A stretch of 64,000 nt of DNA from Planctomycetota bacterium (GTDB lineage: Bacteria; Planctomycetota; Phycisphaerae; UBA1845; UTPLA1). Below the pieces are notes generated by a model that was not told the origin of the DNA, ran no database searches, and saw only the letters and a program-made list of their open reading frames with translations. The DNA lies in assembly GCA_003576905.1 (NCBI GenBank), contig QEVG01000001.1, positions 1-64,000 on the forward strand. Reading direction: 5' to 3'. The position numbers and the translations under genes were made by a program. Below, piece by piece: positions 2-24,913 of this stretch (its first letter is position 1; every line of letters begins with the position of its first letter).

Positions 2-1396
2 CGGAACCGGTACGGGCCGATCCGGCTGATCGTCCATGGGGCCGGCGTCCTGGAGGACCGGCTGATTCGCGACAAGACACCGGAGCAGTTCCTTAGGGTG
101 TTTGATACGAAGGTGGCCGGTCTTCACAACGTGCTCGACGCCGCCGATCCAGCGGAGCTTCGGCACATCGTGCTTTTCTCGTCGGTGAGCGCGCGATTTG
201 GAAACGCCGGACAATCCGACTACGCGATGGCCAACGAGGTGCTCAACAAGACGGCGCATCGGCTGGCAGCTCACATGCCGGGATGTCGCGTGACATCGAT
301 CAACTGGGGACCGTGGGACGGGGGCATGGTGACGCCGTCGCTGCGGCGTGAATTCTCGAAGCGCGGAGTGGAGTTGATACCGCTGGAGTCGGGCGCAGAG
401 GCGATGGTGGATGAGATGCTGGCGGCCGATCCCGCTGAAGAGGTGGTGATCGGCGCGCCGATCCGGCAGGCCGGGCCGGCGGTCCAGACTCCGGAGGAAG
501 CTCGGACGGGGCATCCGCAGGCGTCGGCAGCGCTAAGCCTCGCCTTTGAGCATCTGCTCGACGTGGAGCGGCACCCTTTCCTCCGCTCGCACATAATCGG
601 GGGGCGACCGGTGTTGCCGCTTGCGATAACACTGGAGTGGCTCGCTCACGCGGCACTGCACGCGAACCCGGGGCTCGTGTTTCACGGGGTTGAAGACATG
701 CGCGTTTTGAGGGCGGCTACTGTGGAGGACGCGGGGCTGCGGCTGGAATTAGCCGTCGGCAGGCCCCGGCGCGACAACGGCACCTTCGCAGTCGAGACTC
801 TTTTGCGGAGCGCGGGCGAGGGGGCGAGAACGCCGGGGTACGCCAGCGCAACCGTGCTGCTGGGCCAGCCGAACGCGGGCGGCCCGTCGGCTCCCGAGTG
901 GCATGACTTGATTGACCGCGCCTACCCGCGCACGATTGATGAGGCTTATGAGGAGCAGCTCTTTCACGGCCCCCACTTCCGGACGATCCAGGAGATTCGC
1001 GGCCTGAGCGACCGGGGAATCGTCGCACGGGTGAGCGGCGCTCCCGCGCCGCGCGAGTGGATGCGCGAACCGCTGCGGGGCGCGTGGATCGCGGACCCGC
1101 TGATGATCGACGCGGCGTTTCAACTTGCGATCCTCTGGTGCCGTGAGGTGATGAACGCGCCGTGTCTGCCGAGCTTTGTGGCCCGGTACCGGCAATACGC
1201 GTCGCTGATGCCGCGCGACGGGGCGACGTGCATATTCGCAGTGCGGGAAGCGGGGAGATCGCGGGTTCGCGCCGATGTCCATTTCATCTCGCCGGACGGC
1301 AAGCTTGCGGCGGAGCTGACGGGCTTTGAGGGGACCATTGACCCGCTGCTGGCCGACGCGTTCCGGCGCAGCGCCAATCCGGCAGCGGCGTACTGA
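2..1396 (+). CDS. PUFA-synthase subunit PfaA/Pfa2-like, C-terminal part (KR and PS-DH), 5'-truncated by window edge
   Basis: The frame is open from the first codon of the window, so this is the tail of a larger protein; the GTG at 98 is internal. The visible 464 residues begin inside a ketoreductase domain (IVHGAGVLEDRLI, then FSSVSARFGN and QSDYAMANE, giving the catalytic Ser, Tyr and Asn of an SDR-type KR). A polyketide-type dehydratase follows: HPFLRSHIIGGRPVLPL holds the HxxxGxxxxP motif near residue 188, and a second half contains DPLMIDAAFQ. KR followed by a terminal PS-DH is the order known for PfaA/Pfa2 of PUFA and related secondary-lipid synthases. The stop lies 7 bases before the next megasynthase start, so the two are surely co-transcribed. 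The KS, acyltransferase and ACP repeats expected upstream are outside the window. Confidence 0.85.
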   Translation, partial: RNRYGPIRLIVHGAGVLEDRLIRDKTPEQFLRVFDTKVAGLHNVLDAADPAELRHIVLFSSVSARFGNAGQSDYAMANEVLNKTAHRLAAHMPGCRVTSINWGPWDGGMVTPSLRREFSKRGVELIPLESGAEAMVDEMLAADPAEEVVIGAPIRQAGPAVQTPEEARTGHPQASAALSLAFEHLLDVERHPFLRSHIIGGRPVLPLAITLEWLAHAALHANPGLVFHGVEDMRVLRAATVEDAGLRLELAVGRPRRDNGTFAVETLLRSAGEGARTPGYASATVLLGQPNAGGPSAPEWHDLIDRAYPRTIDEAYEEQLFHGPHFRTIQEIRGLSDRGIVARVSGAPAPREWMREPLRGAWIADPLMIDAAFQLAILWCREVMNAPCLPSFVARYRQYASLMPRDGATCIFAVREAGRSRVRADVHFISPDGKLAAELTGFEGTIDPLLADAFRRSANPAAAY

Positions 1397-1403
1397 GGGG
1401 GTC

Positions 1404-4400
1404 ATGGCGCACGACGCACGGATCGCCATCGTCGGCCTGGGCGGCATCTTTCCGGGGGCTGAAAACCCGGAGGACTACTGGCGGAATATCGTTGAGAAGC
1501 GCGACCAGACACGCGATGTGCCTGCGGGACGGTGGGTACTCGATCCGCACAAGGCGATTGCCGCAGCCCCCCTGCCGGACAGGGTTTACAGTCTGCGCGG
1601 CTGTTTTGTCAATCCCTTTACGCTGCGACCGGATGGGCTCCTGCTCGATGAGTCGGTCGTCGCGCGGTTGGACCCGATGTATCACATGGCCCTGCATGCC
1701 GCGCGGGACGCCTACCTCGCCGCGCGGATGGATGGGGTGGATCGGTCGCGGATTGGCGTGGTCCTTGCGGCAATCGCCTTGCCAACGGATTCGTCGTCGG
1801 CGATCACGCAGGAACTGCTCGGGCCGCAGATCGAGCGGCTGTTGAAACGGGCGGCGCGAGGCGACTCGGCTTCCACGCGACTCACACACGACGCGGGCGA
1901 GCTTCGGACGCATCCGCTTAACAGCCGGGTTGTGGGTTTTCCGGCTGCACTGGTCGCGCAGGCACTGCGGCTCGGCGGAGGCTGTTACACACTCGACGCG
2001 GCGTGTGCGTCGTCGCTGTACGCGTTGAAGCTGGCCTGCGACGAGCTTCGGGCCGGGCGGGCCGACGCGATGCTTGCGGGCGGTGTTTCGCGACCGGAGT
2101 GTCTTTACACGCAGATGGGTTTTACACAGCTTCGGGCGCTGTCTCCCAGCGGGCGTTGTGCGCCCTTTGACGCCGAGTGCGACGGGCTAATCGTGGGCGA
2201 GGGGGCCGGTGTCGTCGTCCTTAAGCGGCTGGAGGACGCGCTGCGCGACGGCGATCGTGTGTACGCGGTCGTTCGCGGAGTCGGACTTTCGAATGACATC
2301 GGCGGAAGCCTGCTGGCCCCGGACAGCGAAGGACAGCTTCGGGCGATGCGGGCTGCTTATGCGCAGGCGGGCTGGGCCCCGGACGCGGTGGACCTTATTG
2401 AGTGTCACGGAACGGGCACTCCGACGGGTGACGCGGTGGAGGCAAGGAGCCTGCGTGCGCTGTGGCAGGGGCTGGACGGGCCGGTCGGCCGATGCCCGAT
2501 CGGATCGGTAAAATCGATGATCGGCCACCTGCTGACCGCGGCGGGCGCAGCGGGGCTGATCAAGGTGCTTCTGGGGATGCGCGAAGGCGTGCTGCCGCCG
2601 TCGATCAATTATCGGGATCATGGCGACGTCATCCCACTGGGCGGGAGCCCATTCCGGGTGCAGACGAAGGCGGAGGAATGGAATCGGCGCGCGGCCGCTC
2701 CCCGGCGGGCGGCGGTAAGCGCGTTCGGTTTCGGCGGAATCAACGCGCACGTCCTGCTGGAGGAGTGGGCGGACTCAGAAAAGCCCCGTGGGCGTTCGGC
2801 ACGCGGGGATACGTCCGGGGGGGACGCGCGCACGGCCGAGAATGCCAAGCGCGCCGAAGGCGAACGGGAAGCCGCGGGTGAGGCGGTTGCCATTGTTGGA
2901 ATGGCGGCGAAGTACGCCGGGGCGGAATCGCTCGACGCATTTGCTGAGTTGATTCTTGGCGACATGCCTTTCACCGAATCACGTCGTGCAGGAGGGACGG
3001 ACCCCAAGTCCGGCGCTGCGAACGGACACATGGAAGGCTCGCCGGGAGATGTATTGAAGCTTGCGGGCCTTGAGATTCCTGCCGGGAGGTTCCGCATCCC
3101 CCCCGCCGAGCTGCCTGAAATCCTTCCGCAGCAACTGCTCATGCTTGAGGTTGCCGCGAACGCATTGGAGGACGCGGGTATTCCTCTCCGCGCGCCCCGC
3201 CCCGATGCGGCCGCAGTGATTGGTCTGGCGCTGGATTTCAATACGACGAACTTTCACCTGCGCTGGTGGCTGCCGGGCCAGGCGCGGCGGCTGGCTCGCG
3301 CGATCGGCATTGAATTGACGAGTGACGAGGAGGCGGCCTGGGTCGAGCGAATGCTCGCGGGAATGCCCCCGGCACTGAATGCGACGCGAACACTCGGAGC
3401 GCTGGGCGGCATGATCGCAAGCCGGATTGCGCGGGAATTCCAGTTCGGCGGGCCCAGCTTCGGAGTGTCGTGCGACGAAGCATCGGGGCTGCGGGCGCTG
3501 GAGATCGCGGTGCGGGGGCTTCGGGCGGGTGAGATCAGCATGGCGGTTGTCGGTGCGGTGGACCTTTCGGGTGATCCACGAGCGGTGGCCGCCACGTGTA
3601 TCGGCGAGACGTCGGTGAACGGGCGGAGGGCGAACGGCTGGATGATCGGCGAAGGGGCCGGTGCGATAGTGCTGAGGCGATTAGCGGACGCCAAGCGCGA
3701 CGGCAACCACGTTTACGCGGTGATAAAGGGCGTGGGGTCGGCGTGCGAGACCCACCACGGTGGCGAGGGCGCATTGGAGCGGGCCCTTCAGGGAGCTTGC
3801 AAGGATGGAGGCGTGCGGGCGGATGGCATCGACCTGTTTGAGGCGGACGCGGCCTGCGAGCCCGCGATCATTGCGCGGGGGTTGGAGACTATCGATCATC
3901 TCATTGAGCGGAGCGACAACCCCGCGGCCGTTGGCTCGGTGCGCGAGCTCATCGGACGGGCGGGAGCGGCGGCGGGAATTGCCGCGCTGGTCAAGGCCGT
4001 CATTTGTCTTGATCGCACTCTGATTCCGCCGGCGCGCCTGTCGATCCAAGGCGCGAAGGCCGACACCAGCGTGCATGCGCCGCGCGAGACGCAATTTTGG
4101 TGGAAGGATCGGAAGGACGGCCCGCGCCGGGCAGCCGTCGGTTGCTGTAGTTCGGACGGGAACCATGTGTTCGCCGTGCTGGAGGACGCAACCCGCGCCC
4201 ATCGCCGATCGGGGCCGCCGCGGGGAACCAGACTGCCCGTCGGCGCGTTCGCAGTGGCGGCCGCCGACGTACGAGGACTGATTGACGGGCTGAACCGACT
4301 TGAAGCGGCATTGCACGCCGGGCCGGACGATATCGCCTCGCTCGCGGCGAAGTGGGCGAGCGAGAGTGAGCCGGCCCGCGCGACGGGGTCTATGTGCGTC

Positions 4401-7400
4401 GCCGTCGTCGGGGCGAACCGGCGCGAGGTGATCGCACGGTGCGAGGCGGGCCGGCACACGCTTCGACGCTCACCGGAGTCGAGACTCGATGGCGCCGACG
4501 GTGTTTTCTTCGAGCCGCGGCCGCCCGCGGGCCGCGGGCAGGTGGCATTTGTGTATCCCGGCTCGGGGAATCACTATCTCGGAATGGGCCGCGAGCTTGC
4601 GGCGCGCTTCCCTGACGTTGCGCGGCGGCTCGAACTGGAAAGCGAGTTGCAGGCGAGCCAGGTCTGTCCGCGCTTGCTCGTGCCACAGCGGATCGACTGG
4701 CCGGACGGATGGCGCGCCGAAGCCGAATCGGCAGTGTCAGAGAACATAGAACAGTTGATCTTCGGACAGGTCTCGTTCGGTGTGTTCATGACCGACGTGC
4801 TGCGCGGAGCGGGCGTGCGGCCCGACGCGGTCCTCGGGTACAGCCTCGGAGAATCGGCCGGGCTCTTTGCGCTGCGAGCATGGCCCGATCGCGACGAGAT
4901 GTTTCGTCGCATGCGGGCGTCCTCACTGTTCAAGTCCGAACTCGCCGGCCCGCGGAGGGCGCTTCAGACGGCTTGGGGCCTGCCGGCGGACGACGCGATG
5001 ACCTGGTCCGTGGCGGTCGTTGCCCGGCCGGCGGAGGAAGTGCGCGCAGCGCTCAGGGACGAGGCGCGCGTCCGGCTGCTGATCGTGAACACGCCGGAGG
5101 AATGCGTGATCGGCGGGCTGGGCGAGGCCATTCACCGCGTCGCCCGAAAGCTGGGCCGACGCGCGATTTCCGTGGACGGCGTGCCGACCGTGCACTGCGA
5201 TGCGGCGCGCGTCGTAGAGCAGGCGTATCGCGAACTGCACTTGATGACGACGACGCCGCCGGTGGGCGTCCGCTTCTACAGCGCGGCCTCCGGCCGCACG
5301 TACGATGTAACGCGGGAAGCTGCGGCGGAGTCCATTACAGCTCAGGCCCTGCACGGGTTTGATTTCCCGGCGCTGGTCGAACGAGCCTATGCGGACGGCG
5401 TAAGGCTATTCGTGGAAGTCGGACCTCAGGCGTCATGCACGCGCATGATCGACCGGATATTACGGGGCAGGGAATACTTCGCGCGATCGGCCTCGGGGCG
5501 GGCGGAATGCGAGATTGCAAGTCTCATGGAGTTGCTTGCGGCTTTGGCGGCGAATGGAGTGCCGATCGATTTCAAAGCGGTCTTTCCGGAGCGAGAGCGA
5601 ACACGGGGCGGACGTGCGGCGGAACCCATCAAGACCGTGCATATCCCCATCGGGGCGTTGCTACCGGATGAACTGCCTCTTCCCATTACCCAACCCACTG
5701 AAAGGGCCCGGGACCCGCGGACGCGCGTAGCCGAGGCGGCCCCACGCATGGCGGTCGCGCCGACGGAGTTGCTTCCGGTCGGGGCGACCACAGCAGATAG
5801 AGCCCTTCGAGATGCACTTTCGGCTACTGCCGCATCGACGGCGGCGGCGCACGGTGCGTTCCTGAGGTTCAGCGAGGCGGCGGCGCACGGGTTAACGGCG
5901 GCGCTGGCTTGGCAGTCGCAGTTGCTGCAATCGGGGGCAGGCGCGACAGGACCAACCGGCTGGGTCATCGGGAATGCATCGGGAAAGTTCGCGGAGCCTT
6001 TCCTGGGCGCTGACACAATGGCGCCCAGATGCAATCCGCGTTTGCCCGAGGGTGAAACGGGCCGGGGCGAAGATGCACCGGCGTTTGATCGAGCGATGTG
6101 CCTCGAATTTGCGAGGGGCAGCGTTGTGCGCGTGCTCGGCCCGGAGTTCGCCGAAGTAGACAGGCATCCGACGCGGGTGCGCCTGCCGGATGAGCCGCTC
6201 ATGCTGGTCGACCGCATCGTTTCGGTCGAGGGGTGCAAGGGCAGGCTTGGGCCAGGCCGCGTGGTCACGGAACATGAAGTACGCCCGGGGGCGTGGTACC
6301 TCGACGGGGGCAAGGCGCCAATCTGCATTACCGTGGAGGCAGGCCAGGCGGACCTGTTTCTATCGGGGTATCTCGGCATCGACTTTGTGACGAAGGGACT
6401 TCGCACGTATCGCCTGCTCGACGCGACCGTGACGCTGCATCGCGGACTGCCGGAGCCGGGCGAGGTAATTCGCTACGACATCCGCATCAATCGATTCGTC
6501 CGACAGGGCGAGACGTATCTCTTCTTTTTCGAGTTTGACGGGACGATTGACGGAGTGCCGGTGCTGACGATGCGGAACGGCTGCGCCGGGTTCTTTACAC
6601 AGGCGGAAACGAGAGCGGCGCACGGGCTGGTGCTGCGGCCGGAGGAGAAAGCGCCGGCAGCGGGAAAGGTTGCCGGCGCGTATTCTTCGCTTATTGATCC
6701 CGCCTGGCCGGGCACACCGGCCGCGGAAGGGCCGGCACCTGAGGCGTATGGAGACGAGCGGCTGGCGGCGCTGCGCCGCGGAGATCTCGCCGGGTGCTTC
6801 GGGGAATCGTTCGCGGGGCTGGGGCTAAGTGATCCGCTTCGGCTGCCTGTCGGTCGCATGAAGCTGATTGACCGCGTCAACTCACTGGAGCCTTGCGGTG
6901 GTCGATTCGGGTTGGGAAGGATCGTGGCGGAGGCGGACATACACCCGGACGACTGGTTCCTGACCTGTCATTTCGTGGATGACTTGGTGATGCCGGGCAC
7001 GCTGATGTACGAGTGCTGCGTGCATGCGCTTCGATTCTTCCTCTTACGCGTGGGATGGGTCGGCGAGCAGGCGGGCGTGTGCTATGAACCGGTGCAGGGC
7101 GTGGCGAGCTCGCTTCGGTGTCGCGGGCCGGTAACTCCGCAGACGAAGAAGGCCACGTACCAGGTTGACATCAAGGAAGTTGGATATCGAGACGGCCCGG
7201 CGGGCAGGGACGGGCAGCCGACAAGAGTTCCGTACGTCCTAGCCGATGCGCTGATGTTTGCCGACGGGGTTCCGATCGTGCAAATGGTGAATATGTCGCT
7301 GCAACCGACGGGGCTGACTCAGGAAGCCCTCGAGGCCACATGGCACATGCGTCGGAAGCCCGCAGCGTCGCAGGCCGTGTTGCCGCGCGCGGCACCAGCG

Positions 7401-8609
7401 GCGCGGCCAGTATTCACCCGTGAACAGATTCTGGCATTCGCGGTGGGCCGGCCGTCCGATTGCTTCGGGCCGAAGTACGCGGAGTTTGATGAGTTGCGTC
7501 GAGTGGCGCGACTTCCGGGGCCCCCCTACCAGTTCCTCGACCGCGTGACGTACGTCGAGCCGGCGGCGTTCGAATTGAAACCGGGCGGATGGATCGAGGC
7601 GGAATATGACGTTCCGCCGGATGCATGGTACTTTGCGGCGAACCGGCAGCCGACGATGCCCTTCGCCGTGCTGCTTGAGGCGGCGCTTCAGCCGTGCGGG
7701 TTTCTGGCGGCGTACGCGGGGTCGGCACTGACGAGTGCGGTGGATCTGTCGTTTCGAAATCTCGGGGGCCGGGCGGTTTTGCATGAGGAGATCGGCCCGG
7801 ACGGCGGGACTCTGCGGACGCGCGTGCGCATGACGAATGTCTCGCGGGCCGGCGGCATGATCATTCAAAACTTCGACATGCAGATGCGACGTGGCGAGCG
7901 GATTGTCTATGAGGGCACGACGTCGTTCGGTTTCTTCTCTGCCGAGGCCCTGGCCCGACAAGTCGGAATCCGGGATGCGGGTGGACGGCTGTATGTCCCG
8001 ACGGCAGCGGAATTGGAACGGGCCAGGTGCCTGGAGCTTGCGGACGAACCCCCTTACGAGCCGGGCGATGCCTATGAGAGCTTCGGTGAAGAGATCGACG
8101 TAGTTGCGAATGGACGGCCATGTCGATTGAAGGCGCGGCTTCCGGCTCGGGCGTTTCGAATGATCGACCGGGTAGATGTGCTCTTGCGCGACGGCGGGCC
8201 GCACGGACTTGGTTTTATCAAGGGGTCCACACGGGTTGATCCGTCGGCGTGGTTTTTCAAGGCGCACTTTTACCAGGACCCGGTGTGGCCGGGGTCGCTG
8301 GGATTGGAATCCTTTCAGCAACTATTGAAGGTGTACATGATTGAACATTGGCCTGTAGCCGCCGCAAGCCATCGCTTTGAGAGCATCGCGGTGGGACAGG
8401 CACATGAGTGGGCGTACCGGGGGCAAATTGTCCCGGCCAATCGGGACGTTGAAGTACAGGCAGTGATCAAACGTCGGGACGATGGTGAGAGCCCCACGGT
8501 AATTGCCGACGGGCTTTTGTCCGTGGACGGTGTTATCATCTATGAGATGAAAGATTTCGGGCTTCGGCTGGTTCGCGGCCGGGCGGGGATCGGCGGCGAG
8601 CGGGTGTAA
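1404..8609 (+). CDS. PUFA/secondary-lipid synthase PfaC/Pfa3-like: KS-CLF-AT-DH-DH
   Basis: A 2,401-residue iterative megasynthase subunit. Residues 1-460 are a ketosynthase with the full triad: Cys201 in DAACASS, His335 in HGTGT, His375 in IGHLLTAAG. Residues about 490-930 are a second KS fold with SCDEASGL where the nucleophile should be and no HGTGT, i.e. a chain-length-factor-like domain. Residues about 1045-1380 are an acyltransferase with GYSLGE (Ser1147). Four hot-dog modules follow (about 1590, 1810, 2030 and 2240 onward), each starting with an RLP...DRV-type strand; the second (CHFVDDLVMPG, His1856) and fourth (AHFYQDPVWPG, His2288) keep the FabA-type catalytic His, so they form two double-hot-dog dehydratases. 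This order matches Pfa3 of myxobacteria except that no acylglycerolphosphate acyltransferase is fused. The ATG at 1404 is chosen because the KS begins immediately (ARIAIVGLGGIFPGA); the frame is open further upstream but overlaps the previous gene. Product (PUFA or another polyene lipid) cannot be read from sequence. Confidence 0.88.
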   Translation: MAHDARIAIVGLGGIFPGAENPEDYWRNIVEKRDQTRDVPAGRWVLDPHKAIAAAPLPDRVYSLRGCFVNPFTLRPDGLLLDESVVARLDPMYHMALHAARDAYLAARMDGVDRSRIGVVLAAIALPTDSSSAITQELLGPQIERLLKRAARGDSASTRLTHDAGELRTHPLNSRVVGFPAALVAQALRLGGGCYTLDAACASSLYALKLACDELRAGRADAMLAGGVSRPECLYTQMGFTQLRALSPSGRCAPFDAECDGLIVGEGAGVVVLKRLEDALRDGDRVYAVVRGVGLSNDIGGSLLAPDSEGQLRAMRAAYAQAGWAPDAVDLIECHGTGTPTGDAVEARSLRALWQGLDGPVGRCPIGSVKSMIGHLLTAAGAAGLIKVLLGMREGVLPPSINYRDHGDVIPLGGSPFRVQTKAEEWNRRAAAPRRAAVSAFGFGGINAHVLLEEWADSEKPRGRSARGDTSGGDARTAENAKRAEGEREAAGEAVAIVGMAAKYAGAESLDAFAELILGDMPFTESRRAGGTDPKSGAANGHMEGSPGDVLKLAGLEIPAGRFRIPPAELPEILPQQLLMLEVAANALEDAGIPLRAPRPDAAAVIGLALDFNTTNFHLRWWLPGQARRLARAIGIELTSDEEAAWVERMLAGMPPALNATRTLGALGGMIASRIAREFQFGGPSFGVSCDEASGLRALEIAVRGLRAGEISMAVVGAVDLSGDPRAVAATCIGETSVNGRRANGWMIGEGAGAIVLRRLADAKRDGNHVYAVIKGVGSACETHHGGEGALERALQGACKDGGVRADGIDLFEADAACEPAIIARGLETIDHLIERSDNPAAVGSVRELIGRAGAAAGIAALVKAVICLDRTLIPPARLSIQGAKADTSVHAPRETQFWWKDRKDGPRRAAVGCCSSDGNHVFAVLEDATRAHRRSGPPRGTRLPVGAFAVAAADVRGLIDGLNRLEAALHAGPDDIASLAAKWASESEPARATGSMCVAVVGANRREVIARCEAGRHTLRRSPESRLDGADGVFFEPRPPAGRGQVAFVYPGSGNHYLGMGRELAARFPDVARRLELESELQASQVCPRLLVPQRIDWPDGWRAEAESAVSENIEQLIFGQVSFGVFMTDVLRGAGVRPDAVLGYSLGESAGLFALRAWPDRDEMFRRMRASSLFKSELAGPRRALQTAWGLPADDAMTWSVAVVARPAEEVRAALRDEARVRLLIVNTPEECVIGGLGEAIHRVARKLGRRAISVDGVPTVHCDAARVVEQAYRELHLMTTTPPVGVRFYSAASGRTYDVTREAAAESITAQALHGFDFPALVERAYADGVRLFVEVGPQASCTRMIDRILRGREYFARSASGRAECEIASLMELLAALAANGVPIDFKAVFPERERTRGGRAAEPIKTVHIPIGALLPDELPLPITQPTERARDPRTRVAEAAPRMAVAPTELLPVGATTADRALRDALSATAASTAAAHGAFLRFSEAAAHGLTAALAWQSQLLQSGAGATGPTGWVIGNASGKFAEPFLGADTMAPRCNPRLPEGETGRGEDAPAFDRAMCLEFARGSVVRVLGPEFAEVDRHPTRVRLPDEPLMLVDRIVSVEGCKGRLGPGRVVTEHEVRPGAWYLDGGKAPICITVEAGQADLFLSGYLGIDFVTKGLRTYRLLDATVTLHRGLPEPGEVIRYDIRINRFVRQGETYLFFFEFDGTIDGVPVLTMRNGCAGFFTQAETRAAHGLVLRPEEKAPAAGKVAGAYSSLIDPAWPGTPAAEGPAPEAYGDERLAALRRGDLAGCFGESFAGLGLSDPLRLPVGRMKLIDRVNSLEPCGGRFGLGRIVAEADIHPDDWFLTCHFVDDLVMPGTLMYECCVHALRFFLLRVGWVGEQAGVCYEPVQGVASSLRCRGPVTPQTKKATYQVDIKEVGYRDGPAGRDGQPTRVPYVLADALMFADGVPIVQMVNMSLQPTGLTQEALEATWHMRRKPAASQAVLPRAAPAARPVFTREQILAFAVGRPSDCFGPKYAEFDELRRVARLPGPPYQFLDRVTYVEPAAFELKPGGWIEAEYDVPPDAWYFAANRQPTMPFAVLLEAALQPCGFLAAYAGSALTSAVDLSFRNLGGRAVLHEEIGPDGGTLRTRVRMTNVSRAGGMIIQNFDMQMRRGERIVYEGTTSFGFFSAEALARQVGIRDAGGRLYVPTAAELERARCLELADEPPYEPGDAYESFGEEIDVVANGRPCRLKARLPARAFRMIDRVDVLLRDGGPHGLGFIKGSTRVDPSAWFFKAHFYQDPVWPGSLGLESFQQLLKVYMIEHWPVAAASHRFESIAVGQAHEWAYRGQIVPANRDVEVQAVIKRRDDGESPTVIADGLLSVDGVIIYEMKDFGLRLVRGRAGIGGERV

Positions 8610-13000: not shown

Positions 13001-13012
13001 GGGGACGGGATG
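13001..13012 (+). promoter_or_regulatory. ribosome-binding site that fixes the ruvB start
   Basis: GGGGACGGG sits directly before the ATG at 13010, just after the ruvA stop. It is the only convincing Shine-Dalgarno plus ATG ahead of the RuvB core, and so argues that translation enters upstream of the in-frame TAG at 13058. Confidence 0.55.
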
Positions 13013-14071
13013 TCGCGCGAACGGATGATCAGCACGGAACCGGGCGGAGAGCGCGAGTAGCAATCCAACTGGGCGCTGCGGCCGCGGCGGCTGTCCGAAT
13101 GCATCGGTCAGCGGCAGGTGATCGCGCAGCTTCAAATTGCTCTGGATGCGGCCAGGCAGCGCGCCGAACCGCTCGAACACGTGCTGCTGGACGGCCCGCC
13201 GGGGCTTGGAAAGACGACCCTGGCCCATGTCATCGCCGAAGAGATGGGTGTTGCAGATCGCATTCGAATCACGAGCGGCCCGGCGATTGTGAAGACGGCC
13301 GACCTGATGAGCGTGCTGACAAATCTTGAAGAGGGTGACGTCCTTTTCATCGACGAGATTCACCGGCTGAACAAGGTGGTCGAAGAGTTTCTTTACCCGG
13401 CGATGGAAGATTTTCGCGTTGACTTCACCATCGAAGGCGGTATGTCCGGGCGGACGGTCAACTTCCGGCTGAAGCGATTCACGCTGATCGGCGCGACGAC
13501 GCGGGCGGGAATGCTGACGGCGGCGATGCGCGATCGATTCGGGCTGCGGTATCATCTTGATTTTTACGAGGCGGACGATCTGCTGGAGATCCTCCGCCGT
13601 TCGGCGCAGCGGCTGGAGATCTCGGCCGGCGAGGAGGCGCTTCGGATGCTTGCGGAGCGCTCACGGGGCACGCCGCGCGTGGCAAACCGGCTGCTTCGCC
13701 GGGTGCGCGACTATGCGCAGGTGCGGGCCGACGGGAAGCTGGGCGCGGGTGTCGTTGAAAAGGCACTAGCCATCGAAGAGATCGACGGCCTGGGCCTTGA
13801 CCGGCTCGACCGGGCGTTCATGAACGTGGTGATCGACACGTACCGCGGCGGACCGGCGGGGATCGAGGCGATCGCGGCGACGATGGGCCAGTCGCGCGAC
13901 ACGCTCGAGGACATGGTGGAGCCTTTCCTGTTGCAGCGGGGCTTCGTCACGCGGACGCGCCAGGGGCGGTGCGTGACACAGAAGGCATATCTGCATCTCG
14001 GGCTGCCGATCCCCGACATCGGACCTGCGCGAACGCCCGCGCCGGACGACACGGGACTCTTCGAGAGCTGA
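13010..14071 (+). CDS. ruvB: Holliday junction DNA helicase RuvB, reading frame interrupted by an in-frame TAG
   Basis: AAA+ motor for branch migration. Reading from the ATG at 13010 gives MSRERMISTEPGGERE, then TAG at 13058-13060, then QSNWALRPRRLSECIGQRQV and the rest in the same frame without a further stop. The part after the TAG includes the strongly conserved LRP..L...IGQ block, Walker A GPPGLGKTTLA, Walker B VLFIDEIHRLN, the GATTRAGMLTAAMRDRFG sensor/arginine-finger region and a complete winged-helix C-terminus. Without readthrough, the first usable start codons are CTG at 13076 or GTG at 13118; the latter would remove the IGQ block. Full length including the TAG codon is 353 residues, normal for RuvB. 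Nonsense mutation, readthrough, rare CTG start or sequence error are all possible. Confidence 0.85.
13058..13060 (+). other. in-frame TAG inside the ruvB frame
   Basis: Codon 17 of the frame starting at 13010. The codons on both sides continue in the same frame, so it is a single-codon interruption and not a frameshift. Confidence 0.9.
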
Positions 14072-19983: not shown

Positions 19984-20769
19984 ATGAATACGGGCGTCCC
20001 ACACATCGTCCGCGTCAGCCGTCGCCGCGAGTTCTCGTCGTCCACTTTGCCCGAGCAGGCTCGTGTCCTGCATGAGTCGGCGTTCCGGGGGGCACGCTGG
20101 TGGCGGGACCGATGGGCGCATCGCCCATTTCGGGATGCGGCGCGGCAAGTACTGCATGTCTACGGCGGACTTGCGCTGATCGGGCCGGATGTTACGGTCG
20201 AAGCGCCATCGCCGTTTGTGGAGATGTTTGAACCCATTGAGATTACCGGGGGGGTCGGCGAAGACGCGGAGCGGCTCCTTGTGCTGTCCGGTGAAGCGCC
20301 GACGCGGCCGGAGCGGCGGCTGTGGGTGCTGAAGCTCTTCGCAATAGTCATCGGCCTGGGAATGTTTGGAATCCTGGTGCTCGCCTTCATGGGTGGCGTT
20401 CCAATCCGCGCGATTCCGCCGATCGGGGCCGCGATTGTCGTGGCGAGTCTCGCCATCACGATTGCCCTGTTTGCGCAAAGCCGAAGCGGACGCTGGTTTC
20501 TCGTGCCATGCGGAATCGCGATCGTGCGACGACCCGTGCGGCGCGGGCAGCCGGGCAGGATCACCGTGCTATCGCGGTGAGATACATGTGCGGCGCTGCG
20601 CTACGTATCGACCGGTAAGACGGTGGTCCTCATGCTGGAACTCTGGACGCATGCAGGGAAGACGCTTCGGCGCTCCGTGTCGGAGCGCGAGGCTGCCGCC
20701 GTCCTTGCGGCATGGCAGAGCCCGTTGACGCCACCCTCTGACGAAAAGCTGATGGAACTGGTGACTTGA
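19984..20769 (+). pseudogene. membrane protein with in-frame TGA; C-terminal domain related to the protein at 23897-24913
   Basis: From ATG 19984 the frame codes for 198 residues with two hydrophobic segments (about residues 117-140 and 146-166), then stops at TGA 20578-20580. The same frame then continues to 20769, encoding DTCAALRYVSTGKTV and, at the end, SEREAAAVLAAWQSPLTPPS. That tail matches the end of the minus-strand protein at 23897-24913 ([23 protein letters not shown]), and the region before the TGA matches too (SGRWFLVPCGIAIVRRP against [16 protein letters not shown]). The TGA falls where the relative has Arg in LFDRRES. It is therefore an interrupted 261-codon gene: recently broken, read through, or a base error. 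Function unknown; 85 bases after the prepilin gene and possibly co-transcribed. Confidence 0.7.
20578..20580 (+). other. in-frame TGA interrupting the membrane-protein gene
   Basis: Reads TCG CGG TGA GAT ACA in frame; homology to a neighbouring protein continues on both sides without a shift. Confidence 0.8.
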
Positions 20770-23896: not shown

Positions 23897-24913
23897 TCAG
23901 GTGAAATCGACGAGCTTTTCGACGGGCGGAGGGGGAAGCGGGCTGCGCCAGGCGCGGAGGAGCACATCGGCCTCCCGCGATGTCACCTGGGTTGACTCGA
24001 TTGTCACGGTGTTCGCGACACAGAGCGTCCATGAGCCCAGGCGAGATTCGGTGAGGGACAACGCACTCTCTCTTCGATCGAAGAGCGCGAGGCTTGAGCG
24101 TGTGGGAATCCGGGAAGGCGTGCGGAGAAGAAGGCCTCCGGGAAGTATGAACCAATGCCGTTTTCCGAGGATGCCGGTCTCCGATGCGAAAAGTCCCGTA
24201 AACAGTATGGCGAGCCATATCACGAGCCTCCAATCGATGCGGGACGCCTCGAACGATTCCAGAACGGCCAGGATAAGCTGAACCCCGACGAGAAACCGCA
24301 TCCCCCAGCCAAGGGCGTTGACTGCAAGGTTTCGACGCACCCGCCTGGCGAGCGCCCATTCTTCCCGAGCTTCACTTCCGGATTCTGCGATGCGGTCCGC
24401 CCTTCCGAGGATTCCTTCCGCGAAGCGAGTGAAGCCGATATCCGCCTCGTCGAGAAGGACGGGTGGAAAGGAAACCTCAAGAGGCGGCGAAGGATCCGGA
24501 AGCCGGCTCCCGGTTTTCCGAAAGCGAAGGCACGCACCATAGTGACCGTTGGCGATGAGGATCTCCAGTGCCGAACGAATGAGGTCCTTCCCATTGGCTT
24601 CGGCAAGCTGCTCGGCGATGTACGTTCCGCATGCGTCGATGCGATTCCGCCGAGCGAGTTGGTGAAGTGTGCGCCTCCTCTGCTTGGTTGTCCGCTGCGA
24701 CGCGAGCAAAACAAGAATCGTGAGGATTGTGCCCGCGATCGCGACACCTATGACAATCGCCGGCGACCTTTCCGCGCCGATCATATAGAGAAGCGGAAGC
24801 AGCACGACGACACCGCAGGCGCTTACGAGAAACACCCCTGCGAAGCGAATTCCCTGCGATGGCGGGATTTCCACGTCGATGACGAACAGTGCTGACCTCT
24901 CCTGCCCGGCCAT
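23897..24913 (-). CDS. membrane protein of unknown function, first gene of an envelope operon
   Basis: 338 residues with two N-terminal membrane helices ([25 protein letters not shown] and [21 protein letters not shown]), a soluble stretch of about 120 residues with [20 protein letters not shown], and a second pair of helices (about 215-260, LILAVLESF and [15 protein letters not shown]). The C-terminal 90 residues after [16 protein letters not shown] are related to the interrupted protein at 19984-20769. ATG 24913 is preferred; a TTG at 24976 would add 21 residues but overlaps the ALDH promoter. No known family identified. Confidence 0.7.

Follow-up and report, generated by a model that had tools for sequence, protein, structure and literature searches.

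In bacterial pseudogenes carrying a single nonsense codon, whether real or spurious, the homologous frame is intact except for one internal stop (PMC11017572). Many of the internal-stop pseudogenes present in bacterial assemblies are assembly errors tied to low coverage (Cooley and Wright, 2024; PMC11017572). Set against these single-nonsense pseudogenes, the interrupted gene described here shows the same features and nothing distinctive. It shares with the genes of bacterial selenoproteins the presence of an in-frame TGA in a genome that also encodes tRNA-Sec and SelB, but differs from them in that no homolog has a Cys at this position and no unusual hairpin is predicted downstream. With the other members of its two-helix membrane protein family (L003–L009), it has in common full-length homology, a similar length and all the strictly conserved residues of the tail, and it differs from them by the stop at codon 199.

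The stretch of DNA analyzed (the window, 64,000 nucleotides) corresponds to positions 1–64000 of contig C62 in a 4.71-Mb draft genome composed of 65 contigs. The start of this contig is occupied by a large polyketide-type synthase (98–8609, + strand), where the frame 98–1396 matches the C-terminal part of PfaA, a polyunsaturated fatty acid synthase, and is followed by a frame of 2427 residues. The interrupted frame (19984–20769) opens with the ATG at 19984 and ends with a TGA at 20767–20769; no second stop or frameshift was found within it. The positions of its parts and of the related features are given in Table 1.

Table 1. Location in the window of the parts of the interrupted frame, its paralog and the stop codon in ruvB.
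Feature	Coordinates	Strand	Remarks
Part upstream of the stop	19984–20577	+	198 codons: N-terminal region and two predicted membrane helices (low-confidence model)
In-frame TGA	20578–20580	+	Codon 199; sense codon in every intact ortholog
Part downstream of the stop	20581–20769	+	62 conserved codons and the natural TGA stop; would encode most of the predicted C-terminal beta domain and the closing helices
Distant paralog	23897–24913	-	Intact; Arg at the TGA column
In-frame TAG of ruvB	13058–13060	+	Codon 17, counted from ATG 13010; with the TGA above, one of the two well-supported internal stops in the survey

The whole frame, with the stop replaced by X, was used as the query in a search of 61 related genomes. 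The best match, in the same-genus genome G001, is full-length and uninterrupted (54% identity over residues 6–260, E 1.9e-82). Clear matches were also obtained in G014, G029, G016, G011, G056, and G019, while G035 and G021 gave weaker ones; no internal stop occurs in any of these. A profile search conducted on 114 genomes of the order detected the gene in 10 of them, and only the window copy is interrupted; besides the clear matches above, this search gave G071 and, as a more distant relative, a gene in G035, both of which are free of internal stops. Among the nine other genomes matching the profile, seven orthologs were aligned through the position of the stop. The check on orthologs proposed in the earlier note therefore yielded intact full-length copies in the same genus, the family and the order, and intact homologs extend through the stop, as expected of a gene interrupted by a nonsense codon. 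The paralog present in the window gave a weaker but real match (32% identity over residues 160–259, E 5.7e-6). The two claims that the frame is cut by a TGA with homology on both sides of it, and that the codons following this TGA (62 sense codons and the stop) match the C-terminus of the paralog, were both borne out by these comparisons. Since the relatives show full-length matches without any stop and only the window copy is interrupted, sequence comparison leaves the homology of the post-stop tail certain. In a genome-contig database, from which records close to this genome may be absent, neither an alignment-based search for the gene nor an exact 32-base search for the stop site gave any match.

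The part located downstream of the stop shows no sign of decay. The identity to the G001 ortholog amounts to 39 of 62 residues after the stop vs. 99 of 185 before it, and the tail retains 15/15 of the columns that are invariant in the other sequences compared, as well as 24 of the 25 columns conserved at 80%. Since the tail is undecayed and all its strictly conserved residues have been kept, the stop must have arisen very recently, be an artifact, or be tolerated.

In the seven aligned orthologs, the TGA column is occupied by T, D, R, S, F, H, and S: it is variable and never contains Cys. The Arg said to occupy this position was indeed found in the paralog and in one ortholog (L005), but the residue varies among the seven orthologs. 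In a low-confidence model, the stop lies between two beta strands (193–198 and 201–209), which fits a variable turn. That the TGA might encode selenocysteine is suggested by the presence in the genome of a tRNA-Sec with a TCA anticodon (66 bits; L065, contig C17:72941–73034) and of SelB above the cut-off (295.9 bits; L210, contig C63:4497–5651), and the organism probably makes selenoproteins since both components are present. This explanation for the gene studied here is nevertheless hardly credible, given the absence of Cys from the column in the orthologs and the fact that, in a general fold prediction, the RNA after the TGA does no better than shuffled sequences (z +0.91), with no unusual hairpin.

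Functional readthrough of the stop, or its local recoding, with some full-length protein as the result, would be consistent with a conservation as high after the stop as before it, and the genome does possess a UGA-reading tRNA, namely tRNA-Sec. This reading is improbable, however, since no ortholog carries a stop at this position, the RNA following the stop folds no better than its shuffled versions, no other suppressor tRNA occurs among the tRNAs scanned, and TGA is the main terminator in this genome. It is very improbable that translation passes the TGA often enough to be useful, so that the membrane protein is made in both a truncated and a full-length version, although if this were the case, it would account for the continued conservation of the tail.

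The earlier note had also pointed to a different stop codon interrupting ruvB in the window, and this holds: in the ruvB frame (13010–14071, + strand), codon 17 is a TAG, and two relatives of the same genus have a sense codon in its place. After it, the first ATG, GTG, or TTG of the frame is the GTG at 13118, which already falls within the conserved domain. The assembly yielded no second full-length ruvB, and the ruvC and ruvA genes directly upstream are intact.

The recurrence of in-frame TGA and TAG codons was surveyed by comparing 1.54 Mb of the genome carrying the window with 1.2 Mb of G001. The G001 reading frames gave 209 matches showing the codon-position pattern typical of genuine genes and covering 89,142 aligned residues; stops resulting from spurious end extensions, antisense frames, or a frame change of the kind that characterizes two-frame transposase genes were discounted. 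In these 209 conserved genes, the well-supported internal stops number only two, the TGA and the ruvB TAG, so that the pattern is not genome-wide. They lie 7.5 kb apart near one end of the contig and affect 2 of the 17 conserved genes inside the window vs. 0 of the 192 outside it (Fisher p 0.006, post hoc), a contrast which is somewhat inflated because the G001 stretches were partly picked around the orthologs of the two interrupted genes. No frameshift-like breaks were seen in the 1.54 Mb surveyed. Two adjacent stops in contig C54 (46527–46532) were discarded because the codon-position patterns show a frame change upstream, which by eye resembles that of the two-frame transposase genes of IS3-type elements. 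The search for SelB also gave a match to tuf with a TAA within it; this was likewise set aside, as tuf is uninterrupted to its normal end. A scan based on codon usage, aimed at stops with coding frames on either side, lacked the power to be of use, as it missed both known cases. No plasmid records were found.

In the 172 conserved genes with readable ends, the terminators are TGA (94), TAG (44), and TAA (34), and the prfB gene encoding RF2 is present (432 bits). No suppressor tRNA with a CUA, UUA, or UCA anticodon was found in the scanned tRNAs besides tRNA-Sec; at one weak tRNA place (contig C35:34894–34991), no anticodon was called. A reassignment of TGA or TAG was rejected on these grounds, there being only two stops in the 209 genes. 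The idea that the two stops call for a common explanation is therefore not supported: none of the 192 conserved genes outside the window is affected, TGA is the usual terminator, and suppressor tRNAs other than tRNA-Sec are lacking in the set scanned.

The interrupted gene seems to encode a membrane protein in which two central helices (model residues 110–136 and 146–164) precede a C-terminal beta domain, with further helices after it, although the single-sequence structure prediction is poor (pLDDT 46). No Pfam family scored above the cut-off for any of the members of this family tested, and no convincing match with solved structures was obtained (best E 0.035). The distribution of the gene is patchy: it occurs in 5 of the 17 genomes of the family and 10 of the 114 genomes of the order, and the same-genus genome G002 has no full-length copy. 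The gene neighbors in G001 and G014 are unlike those in the window. Its patchy occurrence and the absence of a full-length copy from G002 make a tolerated loss plausible, and the gene can probably be lost without harm. In other genomes of the order, distant relatives are clustered in several nearby copies, as in G034 (C38:49471–52924), G025 (C35:36650–39547), and G002 (C27:211750–213110), where they form a small family without any Pfam name.

The most favored explanation, which has about an even chance of being correct, is that a single nonsense substitution has recently struck a dispensable gene of unknown function. The TGA would then be real in the cell, and the lesion would be young, since nearly all the conserved columns of the tail have been kept. 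Translation would end after residue 198, and the truncated product would retain both predicted helices but only a minor part of the C-terminal beta domain, and is probably non-functional for this reason. The clustering of the two stops near the contig end, and the interruption of ruvB, for which the assembly gave no second full-length copy, speak against a nonsense allele and hint at a problem of local sequence quality.

A close second, and nearly as likely, is a consensus miscall in the draft assembly or a base from a minority strain in a mixture of strains, in which case the gene would be intact and would function as it does in the relatives. The undecayed tail is consistent with such an error, as are the position of both stops and the state of ruvB, and internal-stop pseudogenes in assemblies often turn out to be errors (PMC11017572). 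On the other hand, the fact that none of the 192 conserved genes outside the window contains such a stop indicates that the assembly is not generally poor, the frameshift-like breaks are absent from the survey, and in a patchy and probably dispensable gene, a true null allele requires no special cause.

Before any recoding is proposed, stops that interrupt frames in a draft genome should be weighed against a count made across conserved genes, and in the present case, this count argues against reassignment of the code. Should both stops be miscalls, ruvB and the membrane protein gene would be wrongly annotated as broken.
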